Source: Opitutaceae bacterium (GTDB lineage: Bacteria > Verrucomicrobiota > Verrucomicrobiia > Opitutales > Opitutaceae). Taken from it: DNA of 64,000 nt. The stretch lies in contig PLXR01000147.1 in assembly GCA_003151495.1 (NCBI GenBank), positions 1-64,000 on the forward strand, written 5' to 3'. Below the pieces are notes generated by a model. It was given only the letters and a program-made list of their open reading frames with translations. It was not told where the DNA came from and did not search any database. The position numbers were made by a program, and so were the translations under genes. Numbering within the stretch: the stretch's first letter is position 1; every line of letters begins with the position of its first letter. Below, one piece after another: positions 24,749 through 49,054 of the stretch.

Positions 24749-25150
24749 ATGCGTCCCAGGAATCCAGCGCGCCCGAGGGCGCCCTGGGCAGTCCTTGCAT
24801 TGCTGCCGTTCCTGCAGGGTTGCACGGCCGTCGCCCCGGCGCCCGCGCCGCCGCCGCCGGCCCACCTGGTCGTCACCAACCTGACGGACTACCGTTGGCA
24901 CATCGTCATCAGCCGCCCGTCCGGCCAGCCCGTGCGGGATTTCGAGGTGAAGGCCCGCGCTTCAAGCGCCGTGGACCTGGACGGGGCCGACTACGTGATC
25001 GACCAGGACGCGGTGGCCGGGAGCGCGGACCCCGAGCTCGCGCGCAGGCTCTCGGTCCACCTGGATCCGGGAGAAGCCTACGGCTGGAGGCTCGCGACGC
25101 TACTCTCCGCCTCCCCGACCGACGCCGGCGCGCAGGAGCCATCGAGATGA
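24749..25150 (+). CDS. Putative lipoprotein of unknown function
   Basis: A 133-aa protein with a signal peptide and lipobox (LLPFLQGC, Cys near 26), then a Pro/Ala linker. The ~90-residue domain reads HLVVTNLTDYRWHIVI, then DFEVKARASSAVDLDGADYVI, and ends in ARRLSVHLDPGEAYGWRLATLL. The strand-rich pattern suggests a small beta-sandwich. I do not recognise a family. The start was moved to the internal ATG that precedes the hydrophobic core. Its stop overlaps the next ATG by ATGA, so production is likely coupled to the 882-aa protein, and the two may act together in the envelope. Confidence 0.75.
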   Translation: MRPRNPARPRAPWAVLALLPFLQGCTAVAPAPAPPPPAHLVVTNLTDYRWHIVISRPSGQPVRDFEVKARASSAVDLDGADYVIDQDAVAGSADPELARRLSVHLDPGEAYGWRLATLLSASPTDAGAQEPSR

Positions 25151-27795
25151 GCAGCGCCTCAACAACCCGCCGCGCCGTGGCTGAGATCGACCTCAGCGGA
25201 AGCCATTCCGGGGGATTCCGGATAGGCAACCGCTCGATCCACGGTTTCTGGCACCTGTTCTCTTCCCATTTCCGCCATGTCCTCGTCGCACCGCAGCGCA
25301 GGCCGGAGAGCGGCGGAGTCGCCTGGGCCTGGAGGGAGGAGGGCGACCCCCGGCCCGTGACTGCAGCGGAGCTCGCCGAGGTGCGCCGCCGCCTGTCGGA
25401 GTCCAGCCGGTCGCTGGGGGGAAGCCTGGGAGTGATCGGAGGGGAGGACGCACCCGCGGGAGGCTCCGCCGCGACGCTCGAGTGCCAGGTGCTCGCCGTC
25501 ATAAACCAGATGGTCGGCCAGCTCGTCTCGCAGAGGGACGCCGCGCTCGCGCGCTTTGTCTGCCGGACCGAGACCGGGATCATGGTGCACAGCTGGGGCT
25601 GCGTGGAGGCGGCCAAGCCCGTGTATCCCGACGGTCGGAACGGAGAAATCAGCGGGACCGTCTTTTCCGCAAACGGACGGCCGCTCGCGGCCGAGGTGAT
25701 CCTGGAAAACCCGACGGGCGTGCGGGTCTCCAGGACCGAATCCCACAAGGAAAGGGGATTCAGGTTCACGGATATCCCCGCGGGATCCTATCGCCTGCGG
25801 GTGGCGGACCGGAGCGACTTTGCCGGTGAGGGCCTCGCCATCACACTGGACCAGGGTGCTTTGAAGCGGTTGGAGCTTCGCGCAGACGGGGCTCCCACGA
25901 ACCCGGGACAGGCAAAGACCCAAGGGGGCCGCGGCGTCCCCCTCGCGGTGGCCCTGTTTCTCATCCTGGGTGCCGGTGCCGCGGCGTGGCTCCTCATTGG
26001 CCCGGCTGACGGGCATGCACCGGGCGGCAGCCCGTCGGGCGGCTGGCGTTCGGCGTCCGGATCGCTGGTGGACAGCGGGGGACACGACAAGGACACCGCG
26101 CACCGAAGCCTGCATTCGAGATTCAAATGGCCGTCGCTTGCCAGAATCTCAAGGGCCTTCAGATCCGCGTTCACGCAGGGAACCCGCTCCCCGGCGGGCA
26201 CGGCAGGGATTGCCGGGGACAACGAACGCCGCGCCGATGGAGCCGAAGCCTCGGCCGACGGACGGGCACTCCCAGCGCCCGGGGAACGTGTCGCAGGTGA
26301 GCCGGCAGACCAGCAGAAGGCGCCGCCGGACAGGGCTCCAGGCGCCAAAAAGGGGGCCAGCGAAAAACCGGATTCCATCGGTCCGGATACCGGCCCGTCG
26401 GAATCGTCCCTAGACCCATCCGCGCCGCCTCCTTCAAAGGAGATCATTCGTGCCGTGCCCATTGAAACGGCGCGGGCGGATGGAATGCAGCCGGACGCAG
26501 CGGCGGCCGCTTCGCCGTCTCTCGGCGCAGCGCCCGAAGCCCTCTCCCAGGCCGCCGATGCCGGCGGAGACGGCGCAGAGGCAACAGGCAGCGTGGCTGC
26601 GGGCGGTTCATCCGACGGCCTGCCCTCTCCGGGCAACGGGACATCCGCTGGGCCGCTGTCCGGAACTGAAGGCGCGGGCGGCGCCAAGCCCGCCGCCCTC
26701 CCATCGCAATCCGTGATTGTTGCAAATCCCGCGGAAGGCGCGGTTGAAAAGGCGCAGTCCGAGATCGAGCCGCTGTCGGCTCTTCCTGACAAACTCGATG
26801 CAAAACAAGATTCCATGCAAGCGACCGCTGCGGCGCAGCCCGGCCCGGAGACTGCAAAAGATGCTCCCCATCAGGAACACAACGAACCTAGGAGGCTGGC
26901 AATTCCCACACCCCATTCGGCCGAAAAGACCGCGCCAAGGGCGGCTCCAGTGGCCACGGCATCACTGCACCCATTGCCACCGACGACCGTTGCCGATCCC
27001 GTCGCCTCCGCGGGAGCGTCGACCCCAGGCCGCGACTTGGACGCGGTCGCAGGGGAGCAAAGAGGTGCGAAGCAGGGGGCGGCCGCCTTGGCCGCTGTCG
27101 CCCCGAGTGCGGAACCTGTCCTATCCGGCCCAAACCGCCCACTCGTGAGGATCGGCCGCCTTCACGCGACGCCCTGGAAAGCCCAGGTCGTACGGGACAT
27201 CATCGTTCCGACCCGTCCTGTCCCCGTTACCGCGGGAGAATCCGTCGCTTCACTGCAGGACGGCCTTCGCAGGGAGCGCCTTGCGCTCATGCCAAGGTCC
27301 TTCGCGCAGCCCAGGGTCAGGTGCGGCCTTGCGTTTGAGTTTTCCCCGGACTCGTCCGGTCCCCCGAAATGGCGAGTCTCCGGAGGATCCGTGCCAGGCT
27401 CAACGGTCGATGGAAACAGGGCCGAGCTTGACCTTCCCCGGCCCGGATCCCTCCGCGACGAGACCTACGTCCTGTGCGGCGGGGACGGGCGCGATATCGC
27501 CCGGGTGTCCTTTGACAGAGCGGGCGAACCCGAGCTCCGCGTCACCCACGGCGCCCGCGCGTGGTACTGGCTCGGCGTCGAGCGTGAACCCTCGGACGGA
27601 CCCTATGAGTGGCAGCTCCTTTCCGGCGGATCCCTTCCCGGCGCCTGGCGCCAGGAAGGTGCGTTGCAGGGCGGCCGCATGCAGCGGTTAGAGGTCCCCC
27701 TGGCCTCCTCGGACGGGATGGGTGAACCGACCCGTGTGGCGCTTGTCGACCCGGCCACGGGGCTCGGGGTCGCATTCGAATTCGCCCTGCGGTGA
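25147..27795 (+). CDS. Large bitopic protein with carboxypeptidase-regulatory-like domain, disordered spacer and duplicated C-terminal repeat
   Basis: An 882-aa protein I do not recognise. Residues 1-160 form an N-terminal region without signal peptide (GGFRIGNRSIHGFWHLF; LECQVLAVINQMVGQLVSQ). Residues ~165-245 match the carboxypeptidase-regulatory-like fold (GEISGTVFSANGRPLAAEV, ending GFRFTDIPAGSYRLRVAD). A single membrane helix follows (~265-285, LAVALFLILGAGAAAWLLIG). About 380 residues of Pro/Ala/Glu/Ser-rich, probably disordered sequence lead to a C-terminal domain (~675-882). That domain holds two related units, PPKWRVSGGSVPG and PYEWQLLSGGSLPG. Lys/Arg before the helix favours N-inside topology, so the C-terminal repeats would be periplasmic, as in TonB-like proteins. 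The ORF-track start at 24820 is too early; the ATGA overlap with the lipoprotein gene marks this start. Confidence 0.8.
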   Translation: MSSASTTRRAVAEIDLSGSHSGGFRIGNRSIHGFWHLFSSHFRHVLVAPQRRPESGGVAWAWREEGDPRPVTAAELAEVRRRLSESSRSLGGSLGVIGGEDAPAGGSAATLECQVLAVINQMVGQLVSQRDAALARFVCRTETGIMVHSWGCVEAAKPVYPDGRNGEISGTVFSANGRPLAAEVILENPTGVRVSRTESHKERGFRFTDIPAGSYRLRVADRSDFAGEGLAITLDQGALKRLELRADGAPTNPGQAKTQGGRGVPLAVALFLILGAGAAAWLLIGPADGHAPGGSPSGGWRSASGSLVDSGGHDKDTAHRSLHSRFKWPSLARISRAFRSAFTQGTRSPAGTAGIAGDNERRADGAEASADGRALPAPGERVAGEPADQQKAPPDRAPGAKKGASEKPDSIGPDTGPSESSLDPSAPPPSKEIIRAVPIETARADGMQPDAAAAASPSLGAAPEALSQAADAGGDGAEATGSVAAGGSSDGLPSPGNGTSAGPLSGTEGAGGAKPAALPSQSVIVANPAEGAVEKAQSEIEPLSALPDKLDAKQDSMQATAAAQPGPETAKDAPHQEHNEPRRLAIPTPHSAEKTAPRAAPVATASLHPLPPTTVADPVASAGASTPGRDLDAVAGEQRGAKQGAAALAAVAPSAEPVLSGPNRPLVRIGRLHATPWKAQVVRDIIVPTRPVPVTAGESVASLQDGLRRERLALMPRSFAQPRVRCGLAFEFSPDSSGPPKWRVSGGSVPGSTVDGNRAELDLPRPGSLRDETYVLCGGDGRDIARVSFDRAGEPELRVTHGARAWYWLGVEREPSDGPYEWQLLSGGSLPGAWRQEGALQGGRMQRLEVPLASSDGMGEPTRVALVDPATGLGVAFEFALR

Positions 27796-29167: not shown

Positions 29168-30229
29168 ATGGATTCCCCCGGCTCCCAAGCGATCGACTGC
29201 GATGTCCACGCGGTGCTTCCCTCGATCGAGGCCCTCCTTCCCTTCCTTCCGGCCTACTGGCGGGAGCAGATAGGGCAGACGGGATTCAAGGGGCCCACGG
29301 GCAGGTGGTATCCTCCTGGGCTCCCGACCTCGGAACGCCCGGGTTTGAGGCCGGCTGACGGATCCCCCGCCGCCTCTCGGGTCGAGCACATCCAGCGTGA
29401 CGTCCTTGGACAGGCCCCCCACCCCTCCCACGCCATCCTCAATTGCGACTGCGCGGTGGAGTCGCTCCACAACCCCGACGCCGCGTCCGCGGTTTCAGGC
29501 GCCCTCAACGAGTGGATCGCTGCGGCGTGGCTCGCCGCCGACGCGCGCCTCCGGGCATCGATTGTCGTCCCCTCGCAGTTTCCCGAGCTCGCGGTCCAGG
29601 AAATCAACCGTAGGGCCGGAAACCCGGGATTCGTGCAGGTGCTCCTTCCCGTGCGCTCGGAGGCCCCCTATGGATCTCGGAACTTCAGGCCCGTGTTCGC
29701 CGCGGCGGCAAGGCACGGCCTGCCGGTCGCCCTCCACTACGGCGGGCTGCCGGGCAATCCGCCGACGCCTGTCGGCTGGCCCTCATTCTACCTGGAGGAA
29801 TACGCAGGGATGACCGGCGTGTTTCAGACGCAGCTGATCAGCATCATCGCCGGCGGTGTGTTCGACGAGCATCCCGGTCTCCGCCTCGTCCTTGCCGAGG
29901 GGGGCTTCGCCTGGCTTCCCGCGATGCTCTGGCGCTTCGACAAGAACTGGAAGGGCCTGCGCCGGGAGATACCCTGGGTGAGGCGTCCACCCTCAGATTA
30001 TGTGCGCGAGCACGTGCGCCTGACGACCGCGCCCGCGGACGCCCCGGAGGACCCCGCGCAGTTCCGCGATGTGGTGGCCCAGCTCGGCAGCGACGCCATG
30101 CTCCTCTACGCCTCGGACTACCCGCACGCGCACGGCGACTCTGCAAGTGACGCAGTCTGGTCGGGGCTTTCCGCGGAACTGAGGGGAAAGATAATGTCAG
30201 CCAACGCCCGGGCACTCTACAAACTCTAG
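29168..30229 (+). CDS. Amidohydrolase_2-family (ACMSD-like) metal-dependent hydrolase or decarboxylase, copy 1
   Basis: A 353-aa TIM-barrel protein of the amidohydrolase_2 group, which includes ACMSD and related aromatic-acid decarboxylases. The N-terminal metal motif reads IDCDVHAVLPS, so the second His of the usual HxH is absent. The barrel continues with FVQVLLPVRSEAPYG, LPVALHYGGLPGNPP (metal His), LRLVLAEGGFAWLPAMLWRFD, and a C-terminal LLYASDYPHAHGD with the catalytic Asp. It is followed 3 nt later by a paralogue and then a Rieske protein, a compact three-gene operon. Substrate unknown; family context suggests a ring-cleavage or hydroxyaromatic intermediate. Confidence 0.87.
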   Translation: MDSPGSQAIDCDVHAVLPSIEALLPFLPAYWREQIGQTGFKGPTGRWYPPGLPTSERPGLRPADGSPAASRVEHIQRDVLGQAPHPSHAILNCDCAVESLHNPDAASAVSGALNEWIAAAWLAADARLRASIVVPSQFPELAVQEINRRAGNPGFVQVLLPVRSEAPYGSRNFRPVFAAAARHGLPVALHYGGLPGNPPTPVGWPSFYLEEYAGMTGVFQTQLISIIAGGVFDEHPGLRLVLAEGGFAWLPAMLWRFDKNWKGLRREIPWVRRPPSDYVREHVRLTTAPADAPEDPAQFRDVVAQLGSDAMLLYASDYPHAHGDSASDAVWSGLSAELRGKIMSANARALYKL

Positions 30230-30232
30230 GTC

Positions 30233-31312
30233 ATGAGCGCAGCCCCAGTGCCCCCAACGCCGGTCCAGGCCCCCATGGTCGACTGCGACATCCACAACCA
30301 CCTGACCGAGGATGCGGTCTCCAAGTACCTCCCGAAGAAATGGCGCGACTACGACCGCCAGTTCGGCCGCCGCATGACCCCGGGGGACTTCTATCCCAAG
30401 GCGACGCCGATGGCGTCGCGCACCGACGCCTGGCCCCCCGGGGGCGGCCCCCCGGGATCCGACCTCGCGTTCCTGCGCAAGCAGCTTCTCGACGCGTGGC
30501 CGATCGAGGTCGGGATCCTCAACACGCTGATCTCGGTCCGGAACCAGTTCAGGGACTACGACGCCGCCCTGGCCACCGCGGCGAACGCCTGCCAGGTCGC
30601 GGAGTGGCTCGCTCCCGAGCCGCGCCTGCGCGCCTCGCTCCTGGTGCCCTATGAGGACGCGGCGCTCGCCGTCGCGGAGATCCGGCGCCACGCGGGCGAC
30701 CGCCGGTTCGTCCAGGTGCTGATTCCCTCCCGGACGAGCGAGCCGCTCGGCCAGCGCAAGTACTGGCCGATCTTTGCCGCCGCCGCCGAGAGCGGGCTGC
30801 CGATCGGGATCCATTTCGGGGGCTGGAGCGGAGGGCACCCGATCTCGGGGGCGGGCTGGCCGACCTACTACCTCGAGTACCACACGGGGATGATCCAGAC
30901 CTTCCAGGCCCACCTGATCAGCCTCGTCTGCGAGGGGGTGTTCGAGGAGTTCCCGGGGCTCAAGATCGTGTTCATCGAGGGCGGGCTCGCCTGGATCGCG
31001 CCCCTCCTCTGGCGGCTGGACCGGAGCTGGCGCCAGCTGAAGGCAGAAAACCCGAACCTCCGCCGGGCGCCAAGCGAGTACGTCCGCGGGCACTTCTGGC
31101 TCACGACCCAGCCGATCGAGGAGCCGCCCGAGCCCAGCCAGTTCGCCGGCATGATCTCGGGCCTGGGGATGGACGACCGGCTCCTGTTCTCCACCGACTA
31201 CCCGCACTGGGATTTTGACAATCCAGACAGCGCGCTGTCCTCGTTCCCCGGGCCGTCCCTGAGGCAGAAGGTGCGCCGGGACAACGCGAGGGCCCTCTAC
31301 CGCCTCGACTGA
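30233..31312 (+). CDS. Amidohydrolase_2-family (ACMSD-like) enzyme, copy 2
   Basis: A 359-aa paralogue of the preceding protein with the same barrel motifs: MVDCDIHNHLTEDAV (complete HxH), FVQVLIPSRTSEPLG, LPIGIHFGGWSGGHP, LKIVFIEGGLAWIAPLLWRLD and LLFSTDYPHWDFD. It keeps both metal-binding histidines, unlike copy 1. A tandem duplication followed by divergence is the simplest explanation. The Rieske gene starts 8 nt downstream. An alternative start at MVDCDIH would remove 14 residues. The pair may form a hetero-oligomer or act on successive intermediates. Confidence 0.88.
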   Translation: MSAAPVPPTPVQAPMVDCDIHNHLTEDAVSKYLPKKWRDYDRQFGRRMTPGDFYPKATPMASRTDAWPPGGGPPGSDLAFLRKQLLDAWPIEVGILNTLISVRNQFRDYDAALATAANACQVAEWLAPEPRLRASLLVPYEDAALAVAEIRRHAGDRRFVQVLIPSRTSEPLGQRKYWPIFAAAAESGLPIGIHFGGWSGGHPISGAGWPTYYLEYHTGMIQTFQAHLISLVCEGVFEEFPGLKIVFIEGGLAWIAPLLWRLDRSWRQLKAENPNLRRAPSEYVRGHFWLTTQPIEEPPEPSQFAGMISGLGMDDRLLFSTDYPHWDFDNPDSALSSFPGPSLRQKVRRDNARALYRLD

Positions 31313-40702: not shown

Positions 40703-43700
40703 CTAGTGCGCTGCGGGGGTGCCGCCCCCACGCGGGGACCGCACGGCGAAAAGGGAGGCTACGAGGAGCAAGAGGCCGGCCGCGGCGACAGCCAGCGAGA
40801 CCCGGAAAAACCGGGGCTCATAGCTGATCCTAACGCGGTAATCCCCCGCCTTCTCGATCACGAGCCCCTGGAAGGCATGGTTCACCCGGATGACCTTCGC
40901 CTCCCTCCCGTTGATCTCGGCGCGGGCGTAGCGCGGCCAAAACACCTCGCAGAGCACGGCAATCCCGGGACCTGGGGCATGGATCGTGAACGCCGTCGTC
41001 CTCTCGGTCAGCGCGTACCCGCTCGCAGGCTCCACGGTGCGTCCCTCCGGGTCCGCCGGCAAGTCCCCCAGCGCATCCTCCGCGGCGTCCCCTGCCTGGA
41101 TCGCGGCGAACGGCCGGCCATCCCCCTTCATCACGAGCCTCACCAGGCCGGCGGGGTCGCGGTACCGGACGACCCGGTCCACGAAGAACGCCCGCGGCCA
41201 GGCCGTCGGGCTCTCATACGTGTCCAGGTCATAGTGCCCGTCAAGGACGAGACCGGAACCGAGCGCGCCGGTCACTGGGTTGTTGAAATAGTACCGCACG
41301 TTCATGAAATCCAGGAACGGCCTGGCCCTGGCGACCGCGTCCCTTTCCAGGTCCAGCCTCCAGTCCCAGAGCCTCGAGATCGGCGCATCCCCGGTGAGCT
41401 CGCGGTAGTAGGGGTTCATGAGCGCGTCGGGCCCCCCGATGCCCTCGAGCCCGTACGCCGCCGACCAGCCCGGGAAGAAGGATCCGTCGATGCCGACTCC
41501 CCGGCCCGGCCCGGCCGCCTGGCCCGCGCGCATGCGCTCCATCGCGGCGGAGGCCGCGTGAAAGTCGGGGCGGGGCCCCGGGTGGAGGGTGTAGTCCTCG
41601 AAGCCGGCCGACGGCGGCTGGAGCCCCTGCCTCCAAAGCAGGAGCCATCCGCAGAGGATGAGCCCGAGGGCCGAGCCGGGCGACAGCCTCCGCGCCGCCA
41701 GGCAACGCCTCGCGATCCACCCCAGCGCCGCCAGCGCGGCGACCAGCGAGACCGCGTAGGCCTTGACAAAACCGCTCGCCCCGAGCGCCTGCCCGGGCTG
41801 CAGCGGGGAAAACACCGGTTCCGAGGCGAAGACCGTGCGCTGGACCGCCTGGCCGAAGGCGACGTAGTGGAACAGGAGCGCGAAGAGGAGCGCGCCCGCG
41901 ATCGCCAGGTCCCCCCTGCCCTCCCGCGTGCCCAGCCGGTCGGCCGCGGCGCAGAATCCGGCGCCGGCCGCGACCGACCAGAGGACGATCAGCGCGCAGG
42001 AGAAGCAGTTGTCGATGTGGGCCACGTTTCGCAGGAAGGGGACCTGAACGATCCATGACGGCGGCACCAGGCCGAACGCCAGCGCCAGCGGCACGAGCGA
42101 GCTCGCCGCGAGGACGATCGCCGTCCTGTTGGCGGACTGCGCGCGCAGTGTCGCCAGGAAGTAGAGCACGCCCGCGAGGACGAGGAAGTTCGCGGACGGG
42201 TTGAACACGAACCCCCCCGGGGTCAGCGGACGGTAGAAGGCCTCGTCGAAGGCCCCGATCAGGAGGGACGGCTGGATCTGGAATGCGCTGGCGGCGTTGT
42301 AGCTCGTGTAGGACAGGCCGAGGGTGGCGAGGAACGTCGTCCAGGCGGGGGCGCTGATCATCGCGAGGAGAACCGCGGACCACGACGCCGCGGCCAGCTT
42401 CCGCAGCCGGACGCCCCAGGGCTCCTGCGCGGCGAGCACGACACACAGGCCAGAGAGGTTCATGGAGAGCAGGAGCATGTAGGCCTCCTTCACGGTCCCG
42501 CTGCACATGAGCGCGAGGTTGGCGGCAACGAGGGCGGCAGCCCAGCGGGCCGCGCCCCTCACGTCCCGGGCCTGCGAGGCCCTGACCCAGCAGTACAGGG
42601 GCCAGGGCGCCAGGCAGAGGCTGAAGTAGGCCGGGTGGTTGAACCTGTAGATGAAGAAGCCGAAGAAGGGCGCCGCGAGGCTGACCAGCGCGGCCGCCGC
42701 GGTGCGGCGCGTGACCGCGAGCACGAGCAGGCCGAGCCCGAGCGCCAGGAGCCATTTCTCGGCCAGGTACTTGAAATCCCAGGCCCATGCGGCGCCGTTC
42801 GCGGCGACTACCAGGAAGTGGACGGGGTCGCCGAACATCGACTGCCCCTGGCCGAGGAGCGGGATGCCCCCGGAGTTGTACCGGTTCCAGAGGGGCCACT
42901 CGCCGTCCCGGAACACCGCGCGGTGCTCGACCATGGAGTACGGGACGTGCTGCCACATGACCGCACCGACATCGGAGCCCTTCACGTCGGTGAGGAACGG
43001 CGACGAGTAGCCGGGAAGGCTTGGCGTCCCGTCGTAGAGGAAGCGCAGGTCCTCTATATTCGCAGCGACGTGGCTCTTGCCGCCCAGTGCGACCGGATAG
43101 GCGCTCAGGACGACGGCGAGGGCCGAAACCGACGCGATCGCCCAGGAGGGCCGGCTCCAGAGCCGCCGAAGCCCCTCCGCCAGCCTCCCCCTGAGGGCCC
43201 CGGCGCTCCCGATCCCCAGAATGGCGGCGGCGAGCAGCAGGAAGACCCCCGCGGCGCGCGGGACCCACTGCCAGGCCAGGGAAGTGAGGCTCGTGAAGAG
43301 CCTGAGGGGCGGACTGAAGCGCAGGATCAGCTGGGGATCGTTTCCGCCGGGGGCGATGTTCACCGCAAGGCCGTCCCCGTCGCGGACCAAGGACTGGATC
43401 TGGTTCTGGGCCCCGAAGTCGTCCAGCCCGACAGGCCGGATCAGGCGCCCTCCCGCCTCGACCATCCTCACGGAGGTGATCACCACCGTCCCGTCCCCGT
43501 CTATCGGGTCGAGGCGAAGGGACGGGTACACGCCTGCGGGCACCGGAAGGCGGTAGGTGGCGGCGCCCCCTCCGGCCGGAACCGCGGCCGAGGACGAGTT
43601 CCTCTCGCTTAAGCCCCCGCCCGAATCCCAGAACACCTGGACCCGGCCCGCCCTCGTCGACTTGAGGCGGACCTCGAGCGCCAGGTCCTTCGCGTCCCTG

Positions 43701-43783
43701 TGCAGGGCGGGCAGGAACGGGAGGGCCACAGCCGCGCTCAGCAGGGCTAAGGCGGCGAGCGCCTGGGCGTTAAGGATTTTCAA
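40703..43783 (-). CDS. Large YfhO-like multi-pass membrane protein
   Basis: A 1026-aa protein with about a dozen membrane helices. After TM1 (LAALALLSAAVALPFLPAL) comes a ~150-residue periplasmic beta domain. A membrane block with the loop PYSMVEHRAVFRDGEWPLWN and NSGGIPLLGQGQSMFGDP follows. That 'G.WPLWN...G.P....Q' pattern is characteristic of YfhO/GT-C-like proteins. A C-terminal soluble domain (residues ~770-990; FMNVRYYFNN, PRAFFVDRVVRYRD, GIAVLCEVFWPRYARAEINGRE) and a last helix complete it. YfhO in Gram-positives is proposed to modify lipoteichoic acid. Here a role in glycan or lipid-linked sugar transfer at the envelope is a guess. Confidence 0.85.
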   Translation of the reverse strand: MKILNAQALAALALLSAAVALPFLPALHRDAKDLALEVRLKSTRAGRVQVFWDSGGGLSERNSSSAAVPAGGGAATYRLPVPAGVYPSLRLDPIDGDGTVVITSVRMVEAGGRLIRPVGLDDFGAQNQIQSLVRDGDGLAVNIAPGGNDPQLILRFSPPLRLFTSLTSLAWQWVPRAAGVFLLLAAAILGIGSAGALRGRLAEGLRRLWSRPSWAIASVSALAVVLSAYPVALGGKSHVAANIEDLRFLYDGTPSLPGYSSPFLTDVKGSDVGAVMWQHVPYSMVEHRAVFRDGEWPLWNRYNSGGIPLLGQGQSMFGDPVHFLVVAANGAAWAWDFKYLAEKWLLALGLGLLVLAVTRRTAAAALVSLAAPFFGFFIYRFNHPAYFSLCLAPWPLYCWVRASQARDVRGAARWAAALVAANLALMCSGTVKEAYMLLLSMNLSGLCVVLAAQEPWGVRLRKLAAASWSAVLLAMISAPAWTTFLATLGLSYTSYNAASAFQIQPSLLIGAFDEAFYRPLTPGGFVFNPSANFLVLAGVLYFLATLRAQSANRTAIVLAASSLVPLALAFGLVPPSWIVQVPFLRNVAHIDNCFSCALIVLWSVAAGAGFCAAADRLGTREGRGDLAIAGALLFALLFHYVAFGQAVQRTVFASEPVFSPLQPGQALGASGFVKAYAVSLVAALAALGWIARRCLAARRLSPGSALGLILCGWLLLWRQGLQPPSAGFEDYTLHPGPRPDFHAASAAMERMRAGQAAGPGRGVGIDGSFFPGWSAAYGLEGIGGPDALMNPYYRELTGDAPISRLWDWRLDLERDAVARARPFLDFMNVRYYFNNPVTGALGSGLVLDGHYDLDTYESPTAWPRAFFVDRVVRYRDPAGLVRLVMKGDGRPFAAIQAGDAAEDALGDLPADPEGRTVEPASGYALTERTTAFTIHAPGPGIAVLCEVFWPRYARAEINGREAKVIRVNHAFQGLVIEKAGDYRVRISYEPRFFRVSLAVAAAGLLLLVASLFAVRSPRGGGTPAAH

Positions 43784-46858: not shown

Positions 46859-49054
46859 CTAGAGGAGCTCGCCCTGGAGGCTGTCGCCGCCCTTGGGAGG
46901 CGGGCTTATTCCGAGGAACCTGCCGTAGCGCTCGATCCAGTCGTCGAGCTTCCCGATGTAATGGTCGGGATCATAGGGCGCGGACACGGGATCGTGGAGC
47001 GCCACGGGCCTCGCACGCTGCCAGTCGTTCGTACGGCCCTTCTGCTTCGGGGTGATGTAGTAGGTCACACGGTCCCCCATCCTCGGCCGCGGCGTCATCT
47101 GGAGCGCCGCCTCGGAGGAGGCCCGGCGCGGCTTCCCGCCGCCCTCGATGAAGCGGAGGTAGGCGTCGGGGTTCATGGAGAGGACCTCTCCCTTGGCGAT
47201 CTCCGAGACCGGGAGCGACCGGTCCCCTATCCTTCGCCTGTAGTCCTCCAGGAGCCCGGCCGGCGAGGTCGCCGTGGCGCCGAGGAGGTAGTGGATCAGG
47301 GAGTCCGTCAGCTTCTTCAGGAAGGGCTCGACGCCCCTCGACCGGAGGGCGCTCCCGCGCAGGATCACCCGTCCCGACTCGTAGAGCGCGTAATTCTTCG
47401 CCTTGTAGCAGAACATCGCGTCGTAGCGCCCATCGAACTCGAGGTCTATCCCGGGGGGCAGGATCGGGACCACAAGGGCAAGGAGGTCCTCCGGCCTGTC
47501 GAAGTGGCGGTCCGAGGAGAGGTAGATCCCGTCGGTGTCGGCCTCGAGGATCTGGCAGCCGTGGCGGCCGAACTCGTCGATCAGCTTCTGGAGGAGCTCC
47601 CGGCCGCGGCGGGTCACCTCGGCGGCGAGGTCGCCGTCCCCGAAGCGGGCCCCGGAGAACCCGAGGTATCCGTAGAAGGAGTTGATGAGGATCTTGGTGG
47701 TCGCCTGGCGCGCCTTGGCCTCCGCCCGCTCGTCCTCAGTGGGCGCCGTCCTTGCGAGCTGCTTGTACCTGAGGCGGTACTCCAGGAGGTGCCGGAGGAG
47801 CGGGATGAACACCCCGAGGGAGTCGTCCGAGGGGTTCCTGCCGATGTTCAGGAGCAGGCTCGGGTAGAGCGACGCCACGTCGAAGTGGAGCACGTGGCGG
47901 AACACCCCCTCGTTGAAGCTTCGCGTGTAGCCCCCGTCGAAGGGCCGGATCTCGGGCGGCTGCGGGCAGGACTCCCTCGCGTGGTAGTACTCCTCGAGGA
48001 AGAGGAGGTCTATCTTCACGGTCGTCCCCCGCAGTGTCGCCTCCTGGAGCGGGATCGGGAAGGCGCGCGCCTGCTCGAAGTACGTCGGCAGGAGGAGGTC
48101 GCCGAGGCCCTCCGTCTCCCTGAGGTCGTCCTCGAGGTAGGCGCAGAAGCGTGAGCGGTCGCTGACGAAGGCCTCCGCGATCCTGCTCCCCTCGATGTAG
48201 GTGCGCTCCCCGCGGTCCTCGTCGGTGATCCCGAAGTGGAGCGCGACCTCCTTGAGCCCGTAGGAATTGAGCTCGCGGGCCGAGATGTCGTTGAGCAGCG
48301 CGAGCAGGTAGGTGTCGATGACGGCCCGGCCCGGCAGGTCGCAGCGCGGGAAGTCGATCCAGCGCTCCGCGACCTTGAGGCGGCTGCTCCGAAAGGTCGC
48401 CCTCTGCCCGAAGCGCCCCCACGCGCAGGGAACCCTGCGCAACCGGCACCGCAGCCTCAGGTAGTCCAGGTCGAACTTGAAGATGTTGTGGCCCTCGATG
48501 ACGTCGGGGTCCCGGGAGGCGAGCTCCTCGTTGAAGGCCTGGAGGAGCCTCTTCTCGGCCGCGTCCGTGTCGTCCTCGAGGAGGAGCAGGCGGTTCACGC
48601 CCCCGGTGCGCATCCCGATAGCAAGCACCCTGTCCGCAGGCCGCTCCGCATTGCTGAAGGCCCCGTCGCCCGAGCCGGTCTCGATGTCGACCTGGCAGCG
48701 CCTGAGCCTGGCGAAGGCCAGGTCGCCAAAGAGCCTCGCGCGGTGCTGGAGGAGGAACTGGCTCTCGAGAGGCCGTATCGCGTCGATCGCCGTCGAGCTC
48801 GAGTCGCGGGCTGCCCTGAGCAACCCCTCAAATGCCTCAAGGCTCGACGCCCTGGCCAGCGTTCCCAGGACCGCGCCGCCCTTGAGCTTTTCGAGCTCGA
48901 TCCCGGGAAGGGGCGCCGCGGAGGGGTTCGCCGAGAGCCAGGCGAACGGCTCGAAGGGCATCTCCCTCTCGACCCTACTCCCGCCCTGGTCCGCAAGGGA
49001 TACCCGCGCCTTCCCCTCGCCGTCTATCCAGACGCCACAGAGCGTGCCGTCCAT
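46859..49054 (-). CDS. Family B DNA polymerase (Pol II-like) with clamp-binding tail
   Basis: A 731-aa family B polymerase. The exonuclease motifs are CQVDIET (Exo I, near 121), EGHNIFKFDLDYL (Exo II) and YLEDDLRETEGL (Exo III). The polymerase motifs are DVASLYPS (A), KILINSFYGYLG (B) and EADTDGIY (C, near 507). All catalytic acids are present, so both activities should work. The final residues SLQGELL include Q-x-x-L-L, the sliding-clamp binding consensus that Pol II carries at its C-terminus. It is a little shorter than E. coli PolB (783 aa). By family it acts in replication restart or damage tolerance. A small membrane gene lies 14 nt upstream. Confidence 0.94.
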   Translation of the reverse strand: MDGTLCGVWIDGEGKARVSLADQGGSRVEREMPFEPFAWLSANPSAAPLPGIELEKLKGGAVLGTLARASSLEAFEGLLRAARDSSSTAIDAIRPLESQFLLQHRARLFGDLAFARLRRCQVDIETGSGDGAFSNAERPADRVLAIGMRTGGVNRLLLLEDDTDAAEKRLLQAFNEELASRDPDVIEGHNIFKFDLDYLRLRCRLRRVPCAWGRFGQRATFRSSRLKVAERWIDFPRCDLPGRAVIDTYLLALLNDISARELNSYGLKEVALHFGITDEDRGERTYIEGSRIAEAFVSDRSRFCAYLEDDLRETEGLGDLLLPTYFEQARAFPIPLQEATLRGTTVKIDLLFLEEYYHARESCPQPPEIRPFDGGYTRSFNEGVFRHVLHFDVASLYPSLLLNIGRNPSDDSLGVFIPLLRHLLEYRLRYKQLARTAPTEDERAEAKARQATTKILINSFYGYLGFSGARFGDGDLAAEVTRRGRELLQKLIDEFGRHGCQILEADTDGIYLSSDRHFDRPEDLLALVVPILPPGIDLEFDGRYDAMFCYKAKNYALYESGRVILRGSALRSRGVEPFLKKLTDSLIHYLLGATATSPAGLLEDYRRRIGDRSLPVSEIAKGEVLSMNPDAYLRFIEGGGKPRRASSEAALQMTPRPRMGDRVTYYITPKQKGRTNDWQRARPVALHDPVSAPYDPDHYIGKLDDWIERYGRFLGISPPPKGGDSLQGELL

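Follow-up and report, generated by a model that had tools for sequence, protein, structure and literature searches.

Few trans-envelope links are known outside Proteobacteria, and the envelopes of Verrucomicrobiota have been little studied. Among the described systems that invite comparison with the locus reported here, the enterobacterial RcsF-IgaA pair is an envelope stress relay through which the state of the envelope is signalled inward (PMC5978795, PMC7418988). The force transducers TonB and TolA are defined by a helix at the protein start with an SHLS motor-binding motif, a long periplasmic linker and a C-terminal globular domain, and the Ton motors need not adjoin (PMC12204202). The type VI secretion protein TssJ, a lipoprotein of the outer membrane, folds as a transthyretin-like beta sandwich and binds a protein of the inner membrane (PMC3213119).

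Here we describe a pair of overlapping genes found in a window of 64,000 nucleotides, by which we mean the whole stretch of DNA that was analysed (positions 1 to 64,000 of contig PLXR01000147.1 from an Opitutaceae bacterium).

Results

A conserved gene pair in Opitutaceae

The window belongs to a metagenome-assembled genome (G000; 4.1 Mb, 80% complete), which is a draft, as are most assemblies of its relatives. The first-pass annotation, made from the letters alone, had recognised two genes overlapping in an ATGA. Both open reading frames are indeed present, and the start of the large gene overlaps the stop of the lipoprotein gene by 4 nt (ATGA):

24749..25150, + strand, open reading frame of a small lipoprotein, 133 aa
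25147..27795, + strand, open reading frame of a large, predicted inner-membrane protein, 882 aa, with homologues in 39 Opitutaceae genomes

The pair is flanked by a DUF2961 gene upstream and a gene for a PLP-dependent enzyme downstream, each on the opposite strand, and a promoter scan found nothing. Elsewhere in the window, 46862-49054 (- strand) encodes a family B DNA polymerase of the bacterial Pol II kind (Pfam DNA_pol_B, DNA_pol_B_exo1), and a 1026-aa open frame at 40706-43783 (- strand), which has no Pfam match, is either a gene or a shadow frame of high-GC DNA. Two adjoining + strand frames (29168-30229 and 30233-31312), the first encoding an Amidohydro_2 enzyme, have similar translations and are thus apparently a tandem duplicate pair.

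In an initial search of 57 relatives, each of the two genes was found in four genomes, identical for both (G000, G004, G019 and G028). With an N-domain profile (alignment A1) the large protein was detected in 39 of 252 Opitutaceae genomes, distributed over 12 of 49 genera, and a lipoprotein search of 252 genomes of the family matched 36, some weakly. When the loci were read, each of the 39 genomes matched by the N-domain profile had the lipoprotein gene directly 5' of the large gene, and in about 24 the start codon stands at the identical 4-nt overlap. In G135 the lipoprotein gene is divided between two contigs, and the contig of the large gene holds only its 3' end. The conserved pairing of the genes, for which a synteny survey had been proposed, is thus borne out, and the co-occurrence elsewhere on which the idea of a new system had been made to depend is found in every genome with the large protein.

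Profile searches were extended to phylum samples of 388 genomes for the N-domain, 289 for the lipoprotein and 289 for the C-domain, and gave no convincing match outside Opitutaceae in these samples. N-domain profile matches in G540 (DUF1553-type, E 1.2e-4) and G416 were discarded as marginal, short and belonging to different proteins, as were lipoprotein matches in G005, G195, G198, G204 and G205, which are short, cover mostly the N-terminal part and lie within long reading frames. A tblastn search of the N-domain against plasmids returned no match, nor did a scan of a contig collection with the full large protein; the same kind of scan with alignment A4 yielded 9 loci. Around the pair no other neighbouring gene is conserved, save within one genus, so that the module consists of two genes. 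The two genes form a genuine module that is undescribed and lineage-specific, restricted to Opitutaceae among the genomes searched.

The N-domains of the members are 20-59% identical to that of the 882-aa protein, which indicates that both frames have been preserved across a long divergence. Pairwise distances among members correlate across lipoprotein, N-domain and C-domain (r 0.72-0.80), as expected for co-inheritance; the correlation reflects shared ancestry and does not prove contact. In a tree of N- plus C-domain the rows cluster by genus with the minimum possible number of changes (11), a pattern compatible with descent that was mainly vertical, with numerous losses.

Architecture of the large protein

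The large protein had initially been read as a domain followed by one helix, a disordered stretch of about 380 residues and a domain at the C-terminus, with structure prediction suggested as a check. This layout is matched by the relatives and by an AlphaFold2 model based on an alignment of 33 sequences:

25168..25596, + strand, N-terminal domain, residues 8-150, predicted cytosolic (26-member alignment, AlphaFold2)
25636..25881, + strand, carboxypeptidase-regulatory-like domain (CRD), residues 164-245 (Pfam match, AlphaFold2)
25936..25995, + strand, predicted single transmembrane helix, residues 264-283 (AlphaFold2, member sequences)
26002..27132, + strand, disordered Ala/Pro/Ser/Gly-rich linker, residues 286-662 (AlphaFold2, member sequences)
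27145..27789, + strand, C-terminal beta domain, residues 667-881, with two beta units centred on W742 and W822 (alignment, AlphaFold2)

Confident domains are predicted for residues 8-150 (mixed alpha/beta), 164-245 (beta sandwich) and 667-881 (beta, with one short helical part), and pLDDT is below 50 for most of residues 286-662. Residues W35, P49, W60, W62, R80, S149 and W150 of the N-domain are invariant in the 26-member alignment. Conservation is highest in the N-domain, whose mean column identity is 40%; the value is 33% in the lipoprotein and 30% in the C-domain. This ranking would suit a constant cytosolic partner.

The CRD gives a clear though sub-threshold match to Pfam PF13620 over residues 168-237 (E 1.8e-6), at 28.6 bits against a gathering score of 32.3. 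Across the family 15 of 33 members match PF13620 at E<=1 (best 7e-8), and about half of the members do not contain the domain, the helix there following the N-domain closely; its presence and absence amount to 4 state changes on the tree of N- plus C-domain. Judged by this distribution, the CRD is a dispensable part of the large protein. It shares its side of the helix with the N-terminus and is therefore predicted to be cytosolic, which is unusual for such a fold. Of the cytoplasmic-side CRD that had been claimed, a probable domain of this kind and its predicted side hold for the window protein, and its place as a regular component of the family does not.

The large protein has no signal peptide. 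At the helix, the mean K+R count of 32 members is 3.9 on the N side versus 2.5 on the C side, positive charge favouring the N side in 22 members and the opposite side in 7. The missing signal peptide and this positive-inside bias modestly support a cytosolic N-terminus. The helix starts about 175-320 residues from the N-terminus in the members. The linker (Ala 19%, Pro 13%, Ser 11%, Gly 11%) is a long disordered stretch in every full-length member, and its length is unconserved, ranging from about 216 to 621 residues in relatives. Foldseek was run on the whole large protein, so that the domains were mixed in one search and a likeness of the N- or C-domain to a solved fold was possibly missed; the matches obtained, to PDB antibody chains and herpesvirus glycoproteins, were rejected as low-quality alignments with a large rmsd or over disordered parts.

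Two Trp-centred units in the C-domain

The first-pass annotation had pointed out duplicated W-x-SGGS-PG stretches, each with a preceding segment, and all four elements were located in the 882-aa protein: LAFEFSPDSSG (728-738) precedes PPKWRVSGGSVPG (739-751), and LGVEREPSDG (809-818) precedes PYEWQLLSGGSLPG (819-832). The two beta units of the window protein align with a score that beats 999 of 1000 shuffles. Family-wide, of 11,781 diagonals the one that pairs W742 with W822 scores highest (5.3 sd); with the Trp columns masked it is no longer first and still falls within the top 1% (ranks 76/11,781 and 26/8,911). Alignment of the two unit profiles with hhalign gave no significant similarity. 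At either unit's position no relative carries SGGS, and SGGS-PG is doubled only in the window protein.

Because the units align and SGGS is unconserved, a weak ancient duplication is plausible and the striking motif is specific to the window protein. Accepting the repeat in this reduced form, we regard a weak, ancient duplication of a beta unit with a conserved Trp as moderately supported, so that two related Trp-centred units remain of the original claim, and the likeness of the SGGS-PG loops, which the family does not conserve, reads as chance or as a recent event.

The lipoprotein

The small protein combines the following elements:

within 24749..25150, + strand, signal peptide with lipobox LQGC (Cys25), then a 7-stranded beta sandwich, residues 38-115 (alignment, AlphaFold2)

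The lipobox Cys occurs in 29 of 30 aligned members, in agreement with the first reading of the small gene as a lipoprotein gene, and N44, W50, Y111, W113, L115 and T117 are invariant in the 30-member alignment. In the AlphaFold2 model the 7-stranded sandwich has a pLDDT of 95-98 across most of the domain and is separated from Cys25 by only ~12 residues. The best Foldseek neighbour is 6hif_Y (E 4.8e-5), a small chain from the hydrazine dehydrogenase complex of Kuenenia; CnaB-type domains were also found, and the fold resembles small transthyretin/CnaB-like domains.

Residue +2 after the Cys is Ala, Ser, Thr, Gly, Gln or Met and never Asp (29 members). In E. coli, Asp at +2 is the inner-membrane signal of the Lol system; under this rule, which is not established for Verrucomicrobiota, the residues found point to the outer membrane. 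The probable location of the lipoprotein is the periplasm-facing side of the outer membrane. One partner protein (G129, L059 6525-6950) has a hydrophobic N-terminus and no lipobox Cys, which suggests that the anchor of the partner is replaceable and that the partner is not necessarily in the outer membrane everywhere.

Comparison with described families

The N-domain, the C-domain and the lipoprotein have no convincing match to a described family in Pfam or NCBIfam, libraries whose silence leaves a description elsewhere possible, and a limited literature search found no description of the pair. The layout had been said to belong to no described system, which accords with these searches, also for the C-terminal region, on whose identity with a known domain the idea of novelty had been made to hinge. 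PHROGs and PADLOC gave nothing useful, and no Pfam or NCBIfam match to RcsF or IgaA was obtained among the members in alignments A3 and A5. A relation to the SrfA family (NF040486) was considered and dropped: one member matched at NCBIfam E 0.9, none of 241 genomes exceeded the curated cut-off, and the match in G159 (profile 189-290) sits in the helix/linker region. A presumed likeness of the N-domain to SrfA N-termini is not claimed here. SrfB (PF07520) had no match in the pair's own genome, and the control search was empty as well.

Discussion

In the model that we infer, and to which we assign a probability of about 50%, the pair bridges the inner and outer membranes through binding of the C-domain to the lipoprotein and, as a relay, informs the cytosolic domain of the condition of the outer envelope. 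The large protein would reside in the inner membrane with its N-domain in the cytosol, and its flexible tether of ~380 residues, long enough to cross the periplasm, would carry the C-terminal beta domain there. The outer-membrane lipoprotein would present its beta sandwich as a docking domain, and its binding by the C-domain would form the bridge, over which the outer-envelope state may reach the conserved cytosolic domain by a relay or scaffold that is not motor-driven. Two observations lead us to prefer a relay or scaffold to a motor-driven transducer: conservation peaks in the cytosolic domain, and force-transducer features are absent. The relay step itself is conjecture, as no cytosolic partner gene is linked to the pair.

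The TonB-like spanning shape noted in the first-pass annotation would instead suggest a helix coupled to an ExbBD/TolQR-type motor, with the C-domain pulling on the lipoprotein or an outer-membrane protein. The outline stands, as helix, long periplasmic linker and C-terminal globular domain follow in the order of TonB/TolA and an outer-membrane lipoprotein partner is reminiscent of Pal, but the particulars do not: a large domain precedes the helix, which lies at 264-283 and not at the protein start, SHLS is found in the helix of 0/32 members, no TonB_C or TolA match was obtained among 33 members at E<=1, the predicted C-domain being made of two beta units, and no conserved motor genes were seen near the pair. 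A force transducer is therefore decidedly unlikely. The division of labour also resembles that of TssJ-TssM, which offers the closest analogy for docking. A secretion membrane complex of this type is, however, strongly disfavoured and very improbable since the rest of the machine is absent: the sheath protein VipB (PF05943) was found in only 2 of the 39 pair-bearing genomes and not in the other 37, there were no Pfam matches to type VI secretion families, and no conserved secretion genes adjoin the pair.

A static tether or scaffold, serving to fix the geometry of the envelope or to place a cytosolic complex, with no signalling, would account for a linker whose length varies freely while both end domains are retained, and the patchy presence of the pair suggests an accessory role; a passive role leaves the best-conserved domain, the cytosolic one, unexplained, and we consider it unlikely. 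It is also conceivable, and in our judgement unlikely, that the lipoprotein remains in the periplasm or on the inner membrane, where it would assist the C-domain as an accessory subunit or in folding, and that nothing then spans the envelope. A small chain of an enzyme complex as closest structure, the short gap between Cys25 and the beta domain and the one member without a lipobox Cys speak for such a subunit, but the long disordered linker of all full-length members would then lack an explanation, and the +2 Asp expected of an inner-membrane lipoprotein is absent in 29 members.

As a two-gene unit that is co-inherited in 39 genomes with no further conserved neighbours, the pair provides an unusually simple test case for the study of how the inner membrane communicates with the outer one, and brings three protein domain families that have no described function. 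Among known systems, TonB and TolA differ from it by the all-beta, two-unit C-domain and the large N-terminal domain before the helix found here, and TssJ-TssM shows no detected sequence relation to the pair. The CRD (164-245) appears to be of the kind of the CarboxypepD_reg/CnaB-type beta sandwiches, and the lipoprotein has a similar fold; the sequence match is confined to the CRD, the part that appears dispensable. The closest working analogy is RcsF-IgaA, in which RcsF is an outer-membrane lipoprotein and IgaA an inner-membrane protein with cytosolic and periplasmic domains. In contrast to that relay, the Opitutaceae pair has one helix, a long disordered tether, a two-gene unit and no linked phosphorelay, and we tentatively raise the possibility that it represents an unrelated, Opitutaceae-specific trans-envelope coupling, one that would link the outer membrane to a cytosolic domain of an undescribed family by way of a beta-sandwich lipoprotein and a beta domain on a tether.
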